From NCBI RefSeq assembly GCF_000165485.1, contig NC_014623.1:5722893-5786892 (forward strand): a stretch of DNA of 64,000 nucleotides. The letters run 5' to 3'. The notes beneath the pieces are model-generated. The model ran no database searches and was not told where the DNA came from. It saw only the letters and a program-made list of their open reading frames with translations. The position numbers were made by a program, and so were the translations under genes. The stretch is from Stigmatella aurantiaca DW4/3-1. Lineage in GTDB: Bacteria > Myxococcota > Myxococcia > Myxococcales > Myxococcaceae. Positions 1 to 11,379 of this stretch are shown in pieces; positions within the stretch are counted from its first letter, which is position 1; the number at the start of each line of letters is the position of its first letter.

Positions 1-329
1 AAGGCATCCAGCCGTCCCGGGCCAAAGCAGGTCTCCTCCCCTGTATGACAGGCGGGACCCGCCTTCTCCACGCGCGCCAGGACCGCGTCCCCGTCGCAGT
101 CGGCCATGAGGGACACCACGCGCTGCACATTGCCGCTGGTGGCCCCCTTGTGCCACAGGCCCCGCGTGCGGGAGCGGTAGTGCATCTCCCCCGTGGCCAG
201 CGTCCGCTCCAGCGCCTCCCGGTCCGCGTGCGCCACCATCAGCACGTCCCCGCTGCGGGCATCCTGCGTCACCACGGTGACCAGCCCATTGCCCTTGGTG
301 AAATCCAGCTTGGAGAGATCCAGCGTCAT
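1..329 (-). CDS. hisI: Phosphoribosyl-AMP cyclohydrolase, 3' end cut by window
   Basis: Opens the ring of phosphoribosyl-AMP in histidine synthesis (third step). The 109 codons present read from an ATG that overlaps the hisF stop as ATGA. The family signatures are all visible: [13 protein letters not shown], the Asp-rich metal site DCDGD, and the Cys pair in CHTGEETCF. Since a stand-alone HisI is only about 110-130 residues, little is missing beyond the left edge. Whether a HisE domain follows cannot be seen. It is the last gene of the his operon inside the window. Confidence 0.95.
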
Positions 330-1087
330 GCATGGCTCCTGATGCGGAGGCCGCTTCCCAGCAGCAGCGTTTTGATGGCGCCCACGGTGGTGAGCCCGTC
401 ATGGAGGATGCCCGCCACCAGCGCCGCATCCGCCTTGCCATCCGTGAGCGCCTCTCGCACGTGCTGTGCGTTCCCAGCGCCCCCCGAAGCGATGACCGGC
501 ACGGCCACCGCCTCGGCGACGGCCCGTGTCAGCTCCAGGTCATATCCCGAGCGGGCCCCATCCCGGTCGATGCTCGTGAGGAGCACTTCCCCAGCCCCCC
601 GGCGGACACACTCGCGGGCCCAGTCCACCGCATCCAACCCCGTGGGGGTCCGGCCTCCACGGGTGTAGACGCGCCATCGGCCGTCCTCGCGCCGGGCATC
701 GATGCTGGCCACCACGCACTGGGCGCCGAAGCGCTCCGCGCACGCGGTGAGCAACTCCGGGTTCGTCACCGCCGCCGAGTTGATGCTCACCTTGTCCGCC
801 CCCGCCCGGAGCGCTCGGCCCACGTCGTCCGCGGTGCGCACGCCCCCGCCCACCGTCAGGGGGATGAAGAGCCGCTCGGAGGTGCGATGGACGACATCCC
901 ACAACGTCTCCCGCTCCTCGGCGCTGGCGGAGATGTCGAGGAAGGTCACCTCGTCCGCCCCTTCGGCCTCGTAGCGCATGGCCAGCGCCACCGGGTCGCC
1001 CACATCGCGCAGTCCCTCGAACTGGACGCCCTTCACCACCCGTCCGCCCTTCATGTCCAGACAGACGATCAACCGCCGCGCCAGCAT
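326..1087 (-). CDS. hisF: Imidazole glycerol phosphate synthase, cyclase subunit
   Basis: Makes imidazole glycerol phosphate and AICAR from PRFAR, using ammonia channelled from HisH. The 253-residue (beta/alpha)8 barrel begins [20 protein letters not shown], carrying the catalytic-face Asp after CLD, and has the second phosphate site motif IASGGAG near the C-terminus. The ATG overlaps the hisB stop (TGATG). A GTG one codon upstream is an alternative, but typical HisF proteins begin with the MLA..I.CLD pattern. Translationally coupled to hisB and hisI. Confidence 0.96.
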
Positions 1088-1623
1088 CACTTCACCTCCA
1101 GGGCGATGGAGCCCTTGGTGCTGAAGACCGTGCCCGAGTCCACCATGGCATCCCGCAGCGCCAGGCCAAGCGCCTTGAAGGCCGCCTCCGTGAGGTGGTG
1201 GCTGTCCTTGCCCCGGAGGATGCGCAGGTGGAGCGTCACCTTGGCGTGCTCGCAGAACGAGCGCATCCAGTGGTCATACAGCCGGTTGCGCAGCGGCCCG
1301 CGGTAGTAGAAGCGTCCGCAGGTGTCGATGACCGCCTGCACCAGGGCGTCATCCATGGGCAGGGTGCGCTCGCCATAGCGCGCGGCAGTGGGAGGGATGA
1401 TCTGATACACCGCCGTGCCCAGGGTAATGGCCACGTCCTCCATGATGTGGTGGCGCAAATCCCCCCGCGCGTGGAGCGTCATGTCCAGCCCCGCGTAGCG
1501 CGCGAAGGTCCCCAGCATGTGGTCGAAGAACTTCAGGCCGGTGTCCACCTGGGCCACGCCCTTGCCCCGCGTCAGCTCGATGCGGATCTGGGTCTCCTTC
1601 GTCTCCCGGGTCACGATCGTCAT
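1087..1623 (-). CDS. hisB: Imidazoleglycerol-phosphate dehydratase (monofunctional)
   Basis: Dehydrates imidazole glycerol phosphate to imidazole acetol phosphate. This is the 178-residue monofunctional form, without the phosphatase domain of the enterobacterial fusion. Metal-binding histidine/glutamate motifs are present: FDHMLG, HHIMED and [12 protein letters not shown]. The ATG overlaps the hisA stop as ATGA, which rules out the much longer open frame upstream. Histidinol-phosphatase must therefore be encoded elsewhere, since no such gene lies in this operon segment. Confidence 0.95.
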
Positions 1624-2333
1624 GCGAACTCCCGTGCGACCGCGGCCGCGTCGAGCTTCCCCGTATAGAGGGCCATGCCAATGACGGCCCCATGGGCGCC
1701 CGCGTCCGCCAGGGCCCGGAGGTCTTCCAGCGTCGTCACGCCGCCCGAGGCATACACCCGGTGACGGCTCTCGCGAATCACCTCCTGCATCAAGGGCAGA
1801 TCCACCCCACCCATCTGCCCTTCCTTGTGGACGGCCGTCACCAGCAGCCCTCCCAGGGGCAGCGGGTCCAGCACCGCGAGCACGTCCTTCACATCCCGGG
1901 CGCTGCCCGCCGTCCAGCCTCGCGTCACCACCTCGCGGCCCTTCACGTCCGCGGCCACCACCACGCGGCCCGGAAAGCGCCCGGCCACATCCGCCAGCCA
2001 GGCGGTGTCCTCGATGGCGCGCGTGCCCACCACGGCGAACGAGGCGCCCCGGGCGAGCACCGCCTCCACCTTCTCCGCCTCCCGCACACCACCGCCCACG
2101 GTGAAGGTGAGCCCCGGCTCGTGGGAGAGCAACCGGGCGATGACCTCCAGGTTGGAGCCCTTGCCCAGCGCAGCATCCAGGTCCACCACATGGAAGGTCT
2201 TGAAGCCGAAGCTCCGCCACTTCTTCAACGCATCGAGCGGCTCGTTCACGCGCACGCGCTCGGCGTCGTACGAGCCGCCCACGAGTTGCACACACGCCCC
2301 TTCCCTCAGATCGATGGCGGGAATGGCAATCAT
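1620..2333 (-). CDS. hisA: ProFAR isomerase
   Basis: Amadori isomerase converting ProFAR to PRFAR, fourth step of the pathway. It is a 237-residue (beta/alpha)8 barrel starting MIAIPAIDLREG, with the expected Asp of AIDL, VVDLDAALG and the phosphate-binding loops FTVGGGVR and YASGGV. It is a half-barrel repeat homologue of HisF, three genes away. The start overlaps hisH by ATGA. Confidence 0.95.
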   Translation of the reverse strand: MIAIPAIDLREGACVQLVGGSYDAERVRVNEPLDALKKWRSFGFKTFHVVDLDAALGKGSNLEVIARLLSHEPGLTFTVGGGVREAEKVEAVLARGASFAVVGTRAIEDTAWLADVAGRFPGRVVVAADVKGREVVTRGWTAGSARDVKDVLAVLDPLPLGGLLVTAVHKEGQMGGVDLPLMQEVIRESRHRVYASGGVTTLEDLRALADAGAHGAVIGMALYTGKLDAAAVAREFA

Positions 2334-2923
2334 GACGTCACCTCTTTCAGAAAAGCCTGGAGGAAACCCACACCCGCCGAGGAACTCTTCTCGGGATGGA
2401 ACTGCACCCCGAGCACCTTGCCTCGCCGCACCGAGGCCGGGAAACGATCCTCCTCGTGCGTCGTCCAGCCCGACACCACGCCGGGCTGCTCGGCACGGCA
2501 GGCAAAGCTGTGGGCGTAATAGACGGAGTTCAGCGTCACGCCCTTCACCGCGGCATCCTCCTCCACGGAGTTCCAGCCGATGTGCGGCACCTGCCGGGCC
2601 TTCAGCCGCGTCACCCGTCCCTGGAAGATGCCGAGCCCCTGGCCCTCGCCCTCATCGCTGCCCTCGAAGAGCAACTGCATGCCCAGGCAGATGCCGAGAC
2701 ACGGCAGGCCCTGCTCCAGCGCCTGGCGCATCGGCTCACGGCCGGGCTCGAGCCGGGCGGCCGCGGAACCAAATGCCCCGACCCCAGGAAGCACGAGCAC
2801 GTCCGTCTCCAAGGCCTTCCGGGGATCGGTCTGCACCCGGACGTCCGCGCCCGCGGCCGTGGCGAGCGCTTTGGCGAGGGAGTGGATGTTCCCCGCGCCG
2901 TAGTCAAACAAGGTGACTCTCAT
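2330..2923 (-). CDS. hisH: Imidazole glycerol phosphate synthase, glutaminase subunit
   Basis: Class I glutamine amidotransferase feeding ammonia to HisF. The 197-residue form starts MRVTLFDYGAGNIHSLAKAL, overlapping the hisC stop by ATGA. A longer in-frame extension exists but lacks family similarity. The catalytic Cys sits in GICLGMQLLFEGS, and the His/Glu pair in GVQFHPEKS. HisH and HisF are separated by hisA and hisB. Confidence 0.96.
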   Translation of the reverse strand: MRVTLFDYGAGNIHSLAKALATAAGADVRVQTDPRKALETDVLVLPGVGAFGSAAARLEPGREPMRQALEQGLPCLGICLGMQLLFEGSDEGEGQGLGIFQGRVTRLKARQVPHIGWNSVEEDAAVKGVTLNSVYYAHSFACRAEQPGVVSGWTTHEEDRFPASVRRGKVLGVQFHPEKSSSAGVGFLQAFLKEVTS

Positions 2924-3954
2924 CGCCATGCCTCCCGCAGCGCGCCGAGCGCCGCTTCCATCATGGGCCAGGGACCACAACCGATCCGAAGCGCCTCGCC
3001 CACCCCGGTCAGCCCCTGAAAGGCCCGGATGTTCACCCCCTGCTCCCGCATGCGGGCAGCCACCTGAATCGCGCCTGGAAAGGGAACGAAGACGAAGTTG
3101 GCCTCGGTGGGAAGCGGCTTCAGGCCCATTGCCTCCAGCGCCTCCACCAACCGTTGACGGAGCGCCTGGACCTCCCCGGCATGCGCCTTCACCCAGGGCA
3201 GATCCTCGGTGAGGGCCGCGATGGCCATGCGCTCGGCGACGCCATTGTGCTTGTAGGGGCCACGCGCTTTCTCCACCTCGGCCACCAGCTCGGGGCGGCC
3301 GATCGCGTAGCCCACCCGCATGCCCGCCAGGCCAAAGGCCTTGGACAGCGTCCGCGTGACGAGGACGTTGGGCCGCGAGCGGACCAGGTCCACGTTGCTG
3401 CCACGGGAGAACTCCGTATACGCCTCATCCAGGAGCACGATGCCGGGCGCCGCATCCACCAACCGCTCCAAGGCGGCACGAGAGGCCACCGTGCTGGTGG
3501 GGTTGTTGGGCGAGCAGACATAGAGGAGCCGGGCCCCCGTGGCGAGCATCGCCTCCACGTCGATGTCCCAGTCCTGCCGGAGCGGCACCGGGGAGAACTG
3601 AAGCCCATTCACCCGGGCGAAGTAGGACATCATCGAGAAGGAAGGATCCGGAACAGCGATGCGCTCGCCAGGCTCCAGGAAGGCTCGCAGCGCACAGTCG
3701 ATGAGATCGTCCGAGCCACAGCCCGTGGTCAGCCACGAAGGCTCGAAGCCCGTGTACTGGGAGAGGGCCTGCTTGAGGTCCGGCGCATAGCTGATGGGGT
3801 AGCGGGTGATGAGCGAGGAGGCGGCCTCGCGCAGGGCGCGCTCGGCGGCCGGAGGGACCCCGAAGAGGTTGGTGTTGTCGCTCAGGTCCACCCGGCACGG
3901 AACGGCCGGTGGCGAGTAGAGCGAGATGTCTCGGTAGGACGGACGGGTGCGCAT
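2920..3954 (-). CDS. hisC: Histidinol-phosphate aminotransferase
   Basis: PLP-dependent fold-type I aminotransferase acting on imidazole acetol phosphate. At 344 residues it has the usual family length. Visible motifs are DLSDNTN near the N-terminus, CSPNNPTS, LLDEAY (PLP-binding Asp), and TLSKAFGLAGMRVGY with the Schiff-base Lys. The ATG shares one base with the hisD stop (TGATG); a GTG one codon earlier is possible. The specific substrate rests mainly on its place in the operon. Confidence 0.94.
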   Translation of the reverse strand: MRTRPSYRDISLYSPPAVPCRVDLSDNTNLFGVPPAAERALREAASSLITRYPISYAPDLKQALSQYTGFEPSWLTTGCGSDDLIDCALRAFLEPGERIAVPDPSFSMMSYFARVNGLQFSPVPLRQDWDIDVEAMLATGARLLYVCSPNNPTSTVASRAALERLVDAAPGIVLLDEAYTEFSRGSNVDLVRSRPNVLVTRTLSKAFGLAGMRVGYAIGRPELVAEVEKARGPYKHNGVAERMAIAALTEDLPWVKAHAGEVQALRQRLVEALEAMGLKPLPTEANFVFVPFPGAIQVAARMREQGVNIRAFQGLTGVGEALRIGCGPWPMMEAALGALREAWR

Positions 3955-5255
3955 CACGAATGTCTCCAGGCCCGGGCGGCTTCCGCGTGGGCAAAAAGCC
4001 CCTCACTGTCAGCAAGTGTTCCCACATCCTCCGCGAGCCGAGCCGCCGCCTCACGGTCCACCCGTTGCCAAGCGGTCCACCGGTAGAAATCGAGCACGGA
4101 CAACCCCGAGTAGGCATGCCCCAGCCCCGCGGTGGGCAGCACATGGTTGGCGCCCGTCATGTAGTCCCCGAAGGCCACGGAGGCACGCTCCCCGAGAAAG
4201 ACGGTGCCGCAGTGCCGCACCCGTGCCAGGTGCTCCTGGGGGGCTGCGGTGGCAAGGAGCAGATGCTCGGGCGCGAAGGCCGACACGAAGGGCCACGCCT
4301 CTTCCAGGGAGTCCACGCTCAGAACGGCGCCCCGCTCTCTCAAGGAGGTGGAGACAATCTCCCGCCGCCGCGCCCGGGCCGACGCGCGCTCCACCGCCTG
4401 GGCCACCGCATCGGCCTGGGCCTGCCCGACCGCCAGCGTCACGCAACAGGCGTCCGGATCGTGCTCGGCCTGGGCCAGCATCTCGCGGGCCACGGCTTCG
4501 GGATCCGCCGAGCCATCCGCCACGACGAGGATCTCACTGGGCCCCGCGGGAGCATCGATGGCCACCGCGTCCACCACCTGGAGCTTGGCGGCGGCGACAT
4601 AGGCGTTGCCGGGACCCACGATGCGATCCACCCGGGGCACACTCTGGGTGCCATAGGCCATGGCGGCCACGGCCCCCGCCCCGCCCAGGGCGAAGACCCG
4701 GTCCGCTCCCGCCAGCAACGCCGCCGCCAGCACCCCGGCCGCGGGCAGCCCATCGGGCCCAGGCGGCGAGCAGACGATGACCTCCCCCACCCCGGCCACC
4801 TTCGCCGGCACAACCCCCATCAACACACTGCTGGGGTACACGGCCCGGCCGCCCGGCGCATAAACCCCCACCCGCCCCAGCGGGTCCGGCCTCCGGCCCA
4901 CGACGATGCCCGGCTCCGTCTCCACCTCGATGGCCTGGGGCTTCTGGGCCCTGTGGGCCGTGGCGATGTTGCGGGCGGCCCGCTCCAGGGCACTCCGGAC
5001 CTCCGGCTTCAACGCGGCGAGGGCCTCCTCCCACCGCGCCCGGGGCACCTCGAGCGACGAGAGCCGGGCCCGGTCGAACTGAAGCGCCATCTCCAGCAAC
5101 GCGGCATCGCCGTCCTGGCGCACACGGGCGATGAGCTCGCGGGTCCGCTCGGCGACCTGGGCATCCGACGTTCCCGAGCGCTCGAGCAGGCGGCGCCGGG
5201 CCTCGGGGGACAAACCGGAGAGCGGCCCCCGGTACTTCAGCGTTCCAGCGCTCAC
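3954..5255 (-). CDS. hisD: Histidinol dehydrogenase
   Basis: Zn- and NAD-dependent four-electron oxidation of histidinol to histidine. The 433-residue protein contains GPGNAYVAAAKLQV, the GPSEILVVAD stretch and the late YMTGANHVLPTAG motif holding zinc/catalytic His residues. GTG start (VSAGTLKYRG) is preferred because it overlaps the hisG stop as GTGA and the 14 residues upstream in the longer frame look non-coding. Confidence 0.95.
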   Translation of the reverse strand: MSAGTLKYRGPLSGLSPEARRRLLERSGTSDAQVAERTRELIARVRQDGDAALLEMALQFDRARLSSLEVPRARWEEALAALKPEVRSALERAARNIATAHRAQKPQAIEVETEPGIVVGRRPDPLGRVGVYAPGGRAVYPSSVLMGVVPAKVAGVGEVIVCSPPGPDGLPAAGVLAAALLAGADRVFALGGAGAVAAMAYGTQSVPRVDRIVGPGNAYVAAAKLQVVDAVAIDAPAGPSEILVVADGSADPEAVAREMLAQAEHDPDACCVTLAVGQAQADAVAQAVERASARARRREIVSTSLRERGAVLSVDSLEEAWPFVSAFAPEHLLLATAAPQEHLARVRHCGTVFLGERASVAFGDYMTGANHVLPTAGLGHAYSGLSVLDFYRWTAWQRVDREAAARLAEDVGTLADSEGLFAHAEAARAWRHS

Positions 5256-6109
5256 GGCATCAACCTCTCGATGCGGGTGACGAGGATGCCCTCGCACCCC
5301 AGCGCCTTCAGGCCATTGATGGTGCGGTAGATGGTCTTGGCCGAGACCACGGAGTGCACGGCCACGAAGTCCCCGCCGTTCATGATGTCCACGACGGTCG
5401 GCCCGTTGAGGCCCGGGAGCACCTCCCGCACCTGGGCCAGGACCTTGCGCGGGACGTTGGCCATCAAGTAGCGCTTGCCGCGGGCGGCCAGCACCGAGCC
5501 CAGGGCCTGCTTCAGCTCATCCAGCTTCCGCACGGCCTCCTCGCCGTTGCGCTTGCACGCCACCAACCGCGCGCTGGACTCCAGGACGGTGCCCACCTCG
5601 TGCAAGCCATTCATCTTCAGGGTGGAACCGGTGGAGGTCAGATCCACGACGATGTCCGCGATGCCCAGGTGGGGGGCAATCTCCGCCGCGCCCGAGACCG
5701 GAACCACCGTCACCTGCTGCCCCCGGCGGCTGAAGAATTCCTGCGTCAGCCGGGGGAAGCAGGAGGCCACGCGCATCCCCTCCTTCACCCCGTCCACCGA
5801 GGTGATGCCGCTCTCCTCACGGGCGGCCACCACCAGCCGGCACTTGCCGAACTCCAGGTCCATCAAGGGCTCCACCTCGCGTCCGGACTCATTGACCAGG
5901 TCCCACCCGGTGACACCGGCATGCGCGGCCCCATCCGCGACGAACTCGGGAATGTCCTGGGCCCGAACGAAGATGGCTTCGAACTCGCCACCCAGCGAGG
6001 CGGTGAGGGCTCGCTCCCCTCGGGCACGAACCTCGAGGCCGGCATCGTTGAACAACTCGCGAACCTCTTCGGAGAGGCGGCCTTTGTTGGGAAGGGCGAT
6101 CTTCAGCAT
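5252..6109 (-). CDS. hisG: ATP phosphoribosyltransferase, long form
   Basis: Commits ATP and PRPP to histidine synthesis. The 285 residues make this the long, HisZ-independent form: catalytic part (MLKIALPNKGRL; DIVVDLTSTGSTLK as the PRPP loop) followed by a C-terminal ACT-like regulatory domain of about 75 residues ending LVTRIERLMP, the usual site of histidine feedback. It is the first structural gene of the operon. An intrinsic terminator and a His-rich leader ORF lie just upstream, so both enzyme feedback and transcription attenuation are likely. Confidence 0.96.
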   Translation of the reverse strand: MLKIALPNKGRLSEEVRELFNDAGLEVRARGERALTASLGGEFEAIFVRAQDIPEFVADGAAHAGVTGWDLVNESGREVEPLMDLEFGKCRLVVAAREESGITSVDGVKEGMRVASCFPRLTQEFFSRRGQQVTVVPVSGAAEIAPHLGIADIVVDLTSTGSTLKMNGLHEVGTVLESSARLVACKRNGEEAVRKLDELKQALGSVLAARGKRYLMANVPRKVLAQVREVLPGLNGPTVVDIMNGGDFVAVHSVVSAKTIYRTINGLKALGCEGILVTRIERLMP

Positions 6110-6148: not shown

Positions 6149-6178
6149 AAAAAAGCCCGTCCAGGGAGGACGGGCTTT
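6149..6178 (-). terminator. Intrinsic terminator in the his leader (attenuator)
   Basis: On the minus strand a perfect 11-bp stem (AAAGCCCGTCC / GGACGGGCTTT, 5-nt loop) runs straight into six Ts, ending 39 bases before the hisG ATG. It lies between the His-rich leader ORF and hisG. The 5' arm element CCCGTC is exactly complementary to GACGGG at 6250-6255 inside the leader ORF, just after the His codons, so a mutually exclusive antiterminator is possible. The hairpin is seen directly; the attenuation role is inferred. Confidence 0.85.
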
Positions 6179-6213
6179 CGGTCACTGCGGCAGGGCCGGA
6201 GGGGTGGGTCTTG

Positions 6214-6306
6214 TCAGACAGTCACCCTGGCATGCGCGCGGCGAACGGTCCCGTCAGGGCCGAGCCGATGATGCGCATGGGGATGATGCTGGAAGCAAAG
6301 ACGCAC
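6214..6306 (-). CDS. hisL: Histidine-operon leader peptide (regulatory)
   Basis: Thirty-codon ORF upstream of the hisG attenuator. From a GTG it reads VRLCFQHHPHAHHRLG and onward to a TGA. Five His codons fall within seven codons (6268-6288), all CAT, with a sixth at codon 25. Such runs are the hallmark of attenuator peptides, where ribosomes stall when charged tRNA-His is scarce. Start choice is uncertain: the GTG at 6306 has only a weak AGG ahead of it, and an in-frame GTG at 6333 would give 39 codons. The proposed promoter would place transcription start almost on the nearer GTG. Confidence 0.75.
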   Translation of the reverse strand: MRLCFQHHPHAHHRLGPDGTVRRAHARVTV

Positions 6307-6314
6307 GGGGCCTA

Positions 6315-6343
6315 TCAGTAATGGAGCCCACACCGTCCGTCAA
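6315..6343 (-). promoter_or_regulatory. Putative sigma-70 promoter for the his operon
   Basis: TTGACG, 17-base spacer, TACTGA on the minus strand. Transcription would start near 6308, giving a leader of about 200 nt that carries the His-rich ORF and the terminator. The -35 is good and the -10 mediocre. If right, the leader ORF is essentially leaderless. Confidence 0.5.
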
Positions 6344-6445
6344 CCCCTCCTTTGGCCACCAGGAAACAGGGTGCATCCGGCTGTCGGCTGTGATTGGACG
6401 GAGGGCAGCCGAGAAGGCAGCGAAGGTGGTAATTTCCCTTACCTG

Positions 6446-6476
6446 TTGGCGATCGAAACCCGGAAACCTTTAGAAT
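6446..6476 (+). promoter_or_regulatory. Putative promoter of the HD-GYP regulator gene
   Basis: TTGGCG and TAGAAT separated by 19 bases. The predicted start point (about 6483) lies within a few bases of the GTG at 6485, so the message may be leaderless. The spacer is longer than ideal. It is divergent from the his promoter. Confidence 0.35.
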
Positions 6477-6484
6477 CCCCTCCC

Positions 6485-7684
6485 GTGGAAGCCATTCCTC
6501 CTGCCCCTCCCCGAATCTTGATCGTGGACGACGATGATTCCGTCCGCGACGTCATCTCTGTCCTCCTCGCGGAGGAGGGCTACAACTGCGTAGTCGCCAA
6601 CGGCGCTGAGATGGCACTGGACGTCGCGGGCGAGGCAGAGACGCCGCTCGTCATCAGCGACATGAAGATGCCGGGCAAGGACGGACTCTGGCTGCTGGAC
6701 AACCTGCGAGAGCGGCTCCCGGACACCTCGGTCATCATGCTGACGGGCTACGGGGACACGGAGTCCGCGGTGGACTGTCTGCGCCGGGGCGCGGTGGACT
6801 ACCTGCTCAAGCCCCCCAAGCTGACGGATCTGATCCGGGCGATCGAACGCGCCCTGGCCAAGCGCCGCATCGAGCTGGCGCGCAAGCGTTACCAGAAGAA
6901 GCTCGAGCGCAAGGTCCGGGATCGGACCGCCGAGCTGCGCACGGCCTTCAAGGACATCGCCAACACCTACCAGAACACCCTGCTGGCGCTGGTGGCCGCG
7001 CTGGACGCGCGGGAGCACGAGACGTCGGACCACTCGCAGCGGGTGGTCTCCTATACCTCGGCCATCGCCAACATCATGGGCATCCAGGGCAAGGAGCTGG
7101 ACGAGATCGGCCGCGGCGCGCTGCTGCACGACATCGGCAAGATCGGCGTGCCAGACGCCGTGCTGCTCAAGCCGGGCAAGCTCACGCCGGACGAGTGGAT
7201 GGAGATGCGCAAGCACCCGGACATCGGCTTCCAGATGATCCAGAACATCCCCTTCCTCTCCACCCCCGCCCAGATCGTCCTGTCCCATCAGGAGCGGTGG
7301 GATGGGGCCGGCTACCCGCGCAACCTCCAGAAGCATGAGATTCACGTCGGCGCGCGCATCTTCGCGGTGGCCGACACGCTGGACGCGATGACCAGTGACC
7401 GGCCCTACCGCAAGGGCACCACGTTCGCCAACGCGATCCAGGAGATCAAACGCTGCGCCAACACGCAGTTCGATCCCGAGGTCGTCCGCGCGTTCCTGGA
7501 CATCGGCGAGGAAGGGCTGGTCCGGATCAAGCTGGAGATGGCCGAGCGCAAGCTCAAGCCGCTCGAGGCCGAGGCCCGGGCGCAAGAGGCCGAGGCCGAG
7601 CTGGAACGGCTCACCGAGGAAGATGACCTGGAGCTGACGCCCGTGCCCTCCGCGCCGCCCCTGTCCGGCAACAAAGTGGCCTGA
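6485..7684 (+). CDS. Response regulator with HD-GYP phosphodiesterase domain
   Basis: Receiver domain (about residues 8-125: IVDDDD acidic pocket, phospho-acceptor Asp in VISDMKMPGKDG, switch Thr in MLTGYGD, Lys in LLKPP), a coiled-coil linker (KRRIELARKRYQKKLERK), then an HD-GYP domain (about 160-345) with HDIGKIGVPD and HQERWDGAGYP. That combination predicts phosphorylation-controlled hydrolysis of cyclic di-GMP or a related dinucleotide. No DNA-binding domain; the C-terminus is a Glu/Ala-rich helix. GTG start chosen because the receiver begins right after it; the frame stays open to an ATG at 6371, but that segment does not look coding. No kinase partner is adjacent. Confidence 0.88.
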   Translation: MEAIPPAPPRILIVDDDDSVRDVISVLLAEEGYNCVVANGAEMALDVAGEAETPLVISDMKMPGKDGLWLLDNLRERLPDTSVIMLTGYGDTESAVDCLRRGAVDYLLKPPKLTDLIRAIERALAKRRIELARKRYQKKLERKVRDRTAELRTAFKDIANTYQNTLLALVAALDAREHETSDHSQRVVSYTSAIANIMGIQGKELDEIGRGALLHDIGKIGVPDAVLLKPGKLTPDEWMEMRKHPDIGFQMIQNIPFLSTPAQIVLSHQERWDGAGYPRNLQKHEIHVGARIFAVADTLDAMTSDRPYRKGTTFANAIQEIKRCANTQFDPEVVRAFLDIGEEGLVRIKLEMAERKLKPLEAEARAQEAEAELERLTEEDDLELTPVPSAPPLSGNKVA

Positions 7685-9300: not shown

Positions 9301-11312
<2,012 letters not shown>

Positions 11313-11379
11313 AGCGACAACGCAAGGTCTAACGCATGACCGGGCCTGGGTTCAACCCGGCTTCCAGCAGAACGTTCTC

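Follow-up and report, generated by a model that had tools for sequence, protein, structure and literature searches.

The window analysed here, a stretch of 64,000 nucleotides from Stigmatella aurantiaca DW4/3-1, is part of one 10,260,756-bp contig and carries a run of minus-strand his genes headed by a long-form hisG. Between hisG and a divergent response-regulator gene on the plus strand (6371-7684) lies the element that concerns us, which is also read from the minus strand and whose parts are collected in Table 1. Further along the window, an ordinary TPP riboswitch (11214-11322, minus strand) stands directly ahead of thiC (9301-11175, minus strand).

Table 1. Features of the hisG upstream element and of the genes that follow it, in window coordinates.
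Feature	Position	Strand	Basis and remarks
-35 element TTGACG	6343-6338	-	Read directly; TTGAC kept in all 64 family relatives, with a spacing of 17-18 nt
-10 element TACTGA, 17-nt spacer after -35	6320-6315	-	Read directly
Leader-peptide ORF, 30 codons + stop	6306-6214	-	GTG start 6306; MRLCFQHHPHAHHRLGPDGTVRRAHARVTV; TGA 6216-6214
Putative regulatory His codons CAT CAT CCC CAT GCG CAT CAT (segment 1)	6288-6268	-	Kept in every aligned relative
Predicted protector hairpins: CATGCGC (in His codons)/GCGCATG and CGGCCC/GGG-CCG around GACGGG	6279-6231	-	
Antiterminator 5' core GACGGG (segment 2)	6255-6250	-	Invariant in family
Predicted extended antiterminator: GACGGG, CG, TCGC, GCG, GCA, further short helices	6255-6169	-	
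Intrinsic terminator GAAAGCCCGTCC-TCCCT-GGACGGGCTTTT (segments 3 and 4)	6179-6151	-	Terminator scan and covariation
T6 run of terminator	6154-6149	-	Read directly; conserved
hisG, long form, first gene of the operon proposed to be controlled	6109-5252	-	ATG 6109; Pfam PF01634 + PF08029 (HisG + HisG_C)
hisD	3954-5297	-	Pfam; exact gene name beyond the Pfam family putative
hisC-like aminotransferase gene	2920-3957	-	Pfam; exact his name putative
hisH-type amidotransferase gene	2330-2980	-	Pfam; exact his name putative
hisB	1087-2295	-	Pfam; exact his name putative
hisA-type gene	326-1090	-	Pfam; exact his name putative

A preliminary description of this DNA had listed a promoter candidate TTGACG-17-TACTGA, a 30-codon ORF with five CAT among seven codons, a GACGGG segment after them and, ahead of hisG, a terminator with a T6 run whose 5' arm holds the complement CCCGTC, and all of these parts are indeed present. 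A strict sigma-70 scan misses the promoter candidate, which was found at the proposed place and whose position and -35 element are conserved in every relative of the family. The ORF was confirmed from GTG to TGA, its His run HHPHAHH containing two CAT codons at 6288-6283, one at 6279-6277 and two at 6273-6268; the ORF holds a sixth CAT further on. GACGGG and CCCGTC (segment 3, at 6174-6169) were both read at their positions, and the terminator scan returned the same hairpin, with a stem of 12 pairs (6179-6168 with 6162-6151) and a 5-nt loop, ending about 40 nt before the start of hisG. Stretches of seven codons with at least five His occur twice in the six frames of the window, against 0.05 expected under a first-order Markov model; the other stretch (49632, minus strand), which overlaps a response-regulator/receiver-domain gene in another frame, was set aside as apparently due to chance. 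The fold of 6308-6149 has z = -5.35, none of 200 shuffles being equally stable.

The upstream regions of hisG were taken from named genomes and from 145 genomes of the order, the nearest named relative of the window being Hyalangium versicolor. All 64 distinct regions of the family keep the TTGAC-17/18-TA promoter, the His run, GACGGG and the terminator, the latter in the form CCCGTCC...GGACGGGC-T, and the conservation of His run and stems that the preliminary description had asked for among relatives is therefore complete within the family. The leader start codon is likewise GTG or ATG at the same place in all 64; as Myxococcus species use ATG in place of the GTG of the others, what is conserved there is a start. 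The deep Myxococcaceae MAGs L048, L061 and L148 keep the His run and differ in segment 2 and in the terminator, where GTCGGG occurs with CCCGAC, for instance; these divergent relatives have a poor or unclear T-run.

Two aspects had escaped the preliminary description, namely that the element is common to several phyla, and that the leader starts at the expected start of transcription. In the 64 family sequences, the gap between the -10 hexamer and the start codon measures 7 nt in 54, 8 nt in 8 and 6 nt in 2, and in other phyla mostly 6-10 nt, although the in-frame start of each leader was picked by the quality of its promoter and the gap counts lean somewhat towards agreement; an alignment of the starts, judged by eye, gives the same picture. 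Promoters of such quality precede 112 of 117 leaders and only 53 of 799 control ATG/GTG sites, and a Shine-Dalgarno-like 4-mer is missing from 109 of 115 leaders. Because the start lies 6-8 nt after the -10 in every family sequence, translation of the leader peptide probably begins on a leaderless mRNA, whose 5' end, judging from the position of the promoter only and with the usual distance to a transcription start, would be at or next to the GTG.

It is unlikely, in our opinion, that the element is instead a plain his attenuator with an ordinary 5' UTR, whose true start would lie upstream (GTG 6333 or CTG 6318) and whose promoter would be elsewhere. In the window, no stop codon interrupts the ORF upstream as far as GTG 6333, and the -10 is poor, so the strict scan fails to see it; however, the upstream in-frame starts are not found at one place in the relatives, whereas the GTG or ATG at 6306 is, and the constant placement of a TTGAC-17/18-TA promoter just before that codon, with a similar arrangement in other phyla, also clashes with this possibility. 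Leaderless leader-peptide attenuators have been reported in Streptomyces lividans (trpL, leuL, ilvL and thrL; PMC8079986), Sinorhizobium meliloti (trpL; PMC7298713) and Corynebacterium glutamicum (ilvBNC; PMC11857589), and a leaderless start is therefore a known option. These cases have a leader ORF at the 5' end of the mRNA, as is probable for the window element, but concern other amino acids and other phyla, and none is a his leader; we found no report of a leaderless his-operon attenuator in the literature.

The preliminary description interpreted the element as a ribosome-stalling attenuator, and the alternative folds behave as such a device would require. In the predicted fold of the free leader, the CATGCGC/GCGCATG and CGGCCC/GGG-CCG pairings hide GACGGG. 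When the RNA reaches segment 3 without segment 4 and a ribosome sits on the His codons, GACGGG and CCCGTC are predicted to pair, and pairing runs on through the further helices of the extended antiterminator, which involve the region leading up to CCCGTC. The partition-function probability that segment 3 of the window is held by upstream RNA amounts to 0.98, 0.99, 0.99, 1.0 and 1.0 with the ribosome on each of the five His codons, and in the same pre-terminator RNA the probability of the antiterminator is 0.40 without a ribosome and 0.03 with one at the stop codon. The fold of terminator versus antiterminator, proposed as a check in the preliminary description, thus gives for the window an antiterminator with the ribosome on the His codons and not at the stop. 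The same computation for E. coli hisL, which shows the same predicted response to ribosome position, gave 0.62-0.85 on the His codons and 0.0 both without a ribosome and at the stop. After shuffling of the region between His run and terminator, the stall-minus-stop difference of the window was reached in none of 60 cases.

Among the relatives, family medians for the antiterminator are 0.97-1.0 on the His codons and 0.32 at the stop, and the contrast is weaker in other phyla, with 0.81-0.89 on the first five codons against 0.70 at the stop and a free-state median also of about 0.7. This static model gives little or no contrast between stall and stop in 3 of 13 sequences tested; for L139, L149 and L043, the antiterminator is predicted also with the ribosome at the stop codon. 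Once the RNA is complete, equilibrium favours the terminator throughout the family, the window included, whatever the ribosome state, just as in E. coli hisL, and the decision would therefore have to be made during transcription, as in a kinetic switch.

Compensatory changes in the stems, which the preliminary description had proposed to look for, are clear for the terminator: its covariation score is 0.229, a value that none of 500 shuffles attains (0.112 in shuffles), and both sides have changed in 37 cells, compared with 12.7 in shuffles. For the protector, 86% of the cells are paired and 11 are changed on both sides, compared with 3.0 in shuffles and again reached by 0 of 500. The GACGGG/CCCGTC core, in turn, is invariant or nearly so and shows no covariation above shuffles; being too conserved to covary, this pairing draws its support from conservation and folding. 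The constancy of GACGGG may reflect that it must match the protector, the antiterminator and, through CCCGTC, the terminator. Regarding the extended antiterminator, 95% of the cells of its 18 pairs are paired over 61 distinct family sequences, one pair occurring as GU, GC and AU types, and sliding the structure by 1-3 columns lowers the paired cells to 22-46%, a control that favours a structure derived from one sequence. RNAalifold runs on the pre-terminator alignments and z-scores of antiterminator fragments were left out, as the automatic trimming was wrong in several myxobacterial sequences.

We can then propose how the element would work. Transcription would start at about 6308-6306, leaving the leader GTG at the 5' end or within 1-2 nt of it, and ribosomes would begin there without a Shine-Dalgarno site. 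When charged tRNA-His is ample, the ribosome would pass HHPHAHH and reach the stop codon, the protector hairpins would form, GACGGG would not be free, and formation of the terminator would end transcription ahead of hisG. Under a shortage of histidine, the ribosome would stall on the His codons and block the protector, so that GACGGG and the sequence following it could pair with the region that ends in CCCGTC, and the polymerase would read into hisG. We regard it as very likely that the element is a ribosome-mediated transcription attenuator of the his operon, a conclusion in which anatomy and conservation come from sequence, the switching is predicted by computation only, and control by histidine is suggested by the codons and the downstream genes.

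Two other mechanisms deserve consideration. In the first, which appears very improbable, the control would be translational, with alternative hairpins hiding or freeing the region where hisG starts, while the hairpin that resembles a terminator would play a secondary role. Most relatives do have a weak Shine-Dalgarno sequence at hisG or none, an SD-like 4-mer being present upstream of only 26 of 117 hisG loci, and initiation at hisG may be weak or SD-independent; against this mechanism speak the position of the hairpin, which in the window ends some 40 nt before hisG, its T6 run, its conservation as an intrinsic terminator and its strong covariation. The second, whose probability we place slightly lower still, is a leader RNA that senses a metabolite or a protein (a riboswitch, a T-box or the target of an antiterminator protein), where the His-rich ORF would not be the sensor. 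The sequence of the element is unusually well conserved for an attenuator, but none of the Rfam families, the T-box and the riboswitches among them, reaches threshold at the site, and the in-frame His run is the most conserved 5' feature in all the phyla. This run is conserved as codons, since CAT and CAC are mixed while the run stays in frame. A ribosome-mediated attenuator remains the preferred explanation.

The distribution of the element follows that of its gene. A covariance model built from 48 diverse leaders (R1) gave strong matches (E <= 3e-9) in 71 of 195 Myxococcota genomes, and the same 71 genomes carry the long-form hisG (at least 66% identity), in perfect co-occurrence with the element. 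The other R1 matches in Myxococcota are weak, two at E of about 5e-7 and 2e-6 being Thr leaders and the rest having E >= 2e-5. In a genome of the same family (G090), the hisG is a different one (L152, 36% identical) and its upstream region is devoid of the His run. As far as these searches go, genomes that lack the long-form hisG lack the attenuator too.

The same arrangement stands ahead of hisG genes 65-76% identical to that of the window in Gemmatimonadota and Candidatus Eisenbacteria, as well as in deep-branching Myxococcaceae MAGs and in one MAG labelled as Planctomycetota. What these share is an HHHAHH-like run, GGCCCGACGGGTC, and GGCCCGTCC...GGACGGGCC-T. R1 matches (E <= 1e-4) were obtained in 105 of 298 Gemmatimonadota genomes, and the eight that were checked all lie directly ahead of a hisG (66-74% identical); among genomes of the Eisenbacteria phylum the model matches 7 of 47, and in the phylum of the Planctomycetota-labelled MAG 2 of 199. 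Some record labels look wrong (L005/L041): the his locus of a 'Comamonas sp. KCTC 72670' is myxobacterial, and the hisG of a 'Candidatus Kuenenia' MAG is of the Gemmatimonadota type. The comparative data also refute the idea of a chance His run beside a constitutive terminator with no regulation, to which only the second, apparently fortuitous His-rich stretch of the window could lend some credit, and which conservation in 64 of 64 family sequences, one-to-one co-occurrence with hisG over 195 genomes and conservation across phyla leave with practically no probability.

A second model (R2), made of 30 Gemmatimonadota or unassigned/mislabelled leaders with no myxobacterium among them, scores the window element at 73.3 bits, other cultured-type myxobacteria at 58-83 bits and E. 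coli hisL at 9.2 bits, which shows a relationship among these elements but no recognisable one with the enteric leader. In a tree of HisG, the element-bearing proteins form one group, with a fully supported split from E. coli HisG and L152, although HisG was sampled by similarity to the window protein and the tree leaves the direction of transfer unsettled. The element would be either ancestral to the long-form hisG clade of myxobacteria, Gemmatimonadota and Eisenbacteria, or carried between them with the gene. We lean, with some reserve, towards one homologous leaderless his attenuator that constitutes a portable cassette bound to this hisG clade across Myxococcota, Gemmatimonadota and Eisenbacteria.

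With the enteric his leader (RF00514 His_leader, E. coli hisL) the element shares a His-rich leader ORF, a stall-dependent antiterminator and a terminator before hisG; it differs in its 30-codon ORF, which continues through the 5' arm of the antiterminator, and in its probably leaderless start. RF00514 gave no match in the whole window genome in a search whose control was positive in E. coli, and it is not among the Rfam matches at the site up to E of 10, where only unrelated sub-threshold matches appear; conversely, E. coli hisL obtains only 12.3 and 9.2 bits under the new covariance models. His attenuators have been credited to Proteobacteria and some Firmicutes (PMC9413887), with predicted examples in the Bacillus cereus group, Peptostreptococcaceae and Erysipelotrichales (PMC9413887), together with the hisS/hisZ leaders of bacilli (PMC2965389). 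These Firmicutes leaders (PMC9413887, PMC2965389) have, like the window element, a His leader peptide and a terminator/antiterminator, but belong to another phylum and are likened here by description, not by sequence; leaders of Firmicutes and Proteobacteria are reported to show no similarity (PMC2965389). The amino acid attenuator motifs have been regarded as perhaps of gammaproteobacterial origin, with very few transfers (PMC3766115, PMC9413887). A search of the literature on attenuators with Myxococcus, myxobacteria or Gemmatimonas, whose scope did not extend to the 2004 proteobacterial survey of Vitreschak et al., returned nothing on this element. It is best called a new cross-phylum variant, probably leaderless, which is predicted to act like the enteric his attenuator and falls outside the described His_leader.

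If the cassette reading is true, this attenuator family, absent from Rfam, would be far wider and more deeply conserved than the published surveys consulted suggest. What is seen here is a well-conserved his attenuator in at least two or three phyla beyond Proteobacteria and Firmicutes, standing one-to-one with a hisG lineage. The element offers a testable RNA family and an example of an attenuator that was retained or transferred together with its gene; should its start be leaderless, it would be a model for the tight coupling of leaderless translation to transcription in Gram-negative soil bacteria.

Second, weaker matches of the model were followed in ten Myxococcota genomes, and six of them are Thr-rich leaders before a second thrS-like gene. 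The remaining four look like coding DNA and were rejected, among them a match at 1,223,921 of the window genome dismissed as chance. The Thr-rich, apparently leaderless leader ORFs (L168, L169, L170, L171, L172 and L177, as well as L189 in the window genome, C1 at about 8,190,000) precede the second thrS-like gene and begin some 7-8 nt downstream of a TTGAC promoter; the peptide is VSFVITTTTTGTTTRFGGRGAVRVTW in G103 and, read by eye, MKFSQLTTRTTTPRTGGRAAVRT in the window genome. The Thr-rich leader is probably a threonine attenuator, which points to leaderless attenuators as a possibly broader trait of these bacteria. In G103, the Thr leader is followed by a strong hairpin with no T-run.
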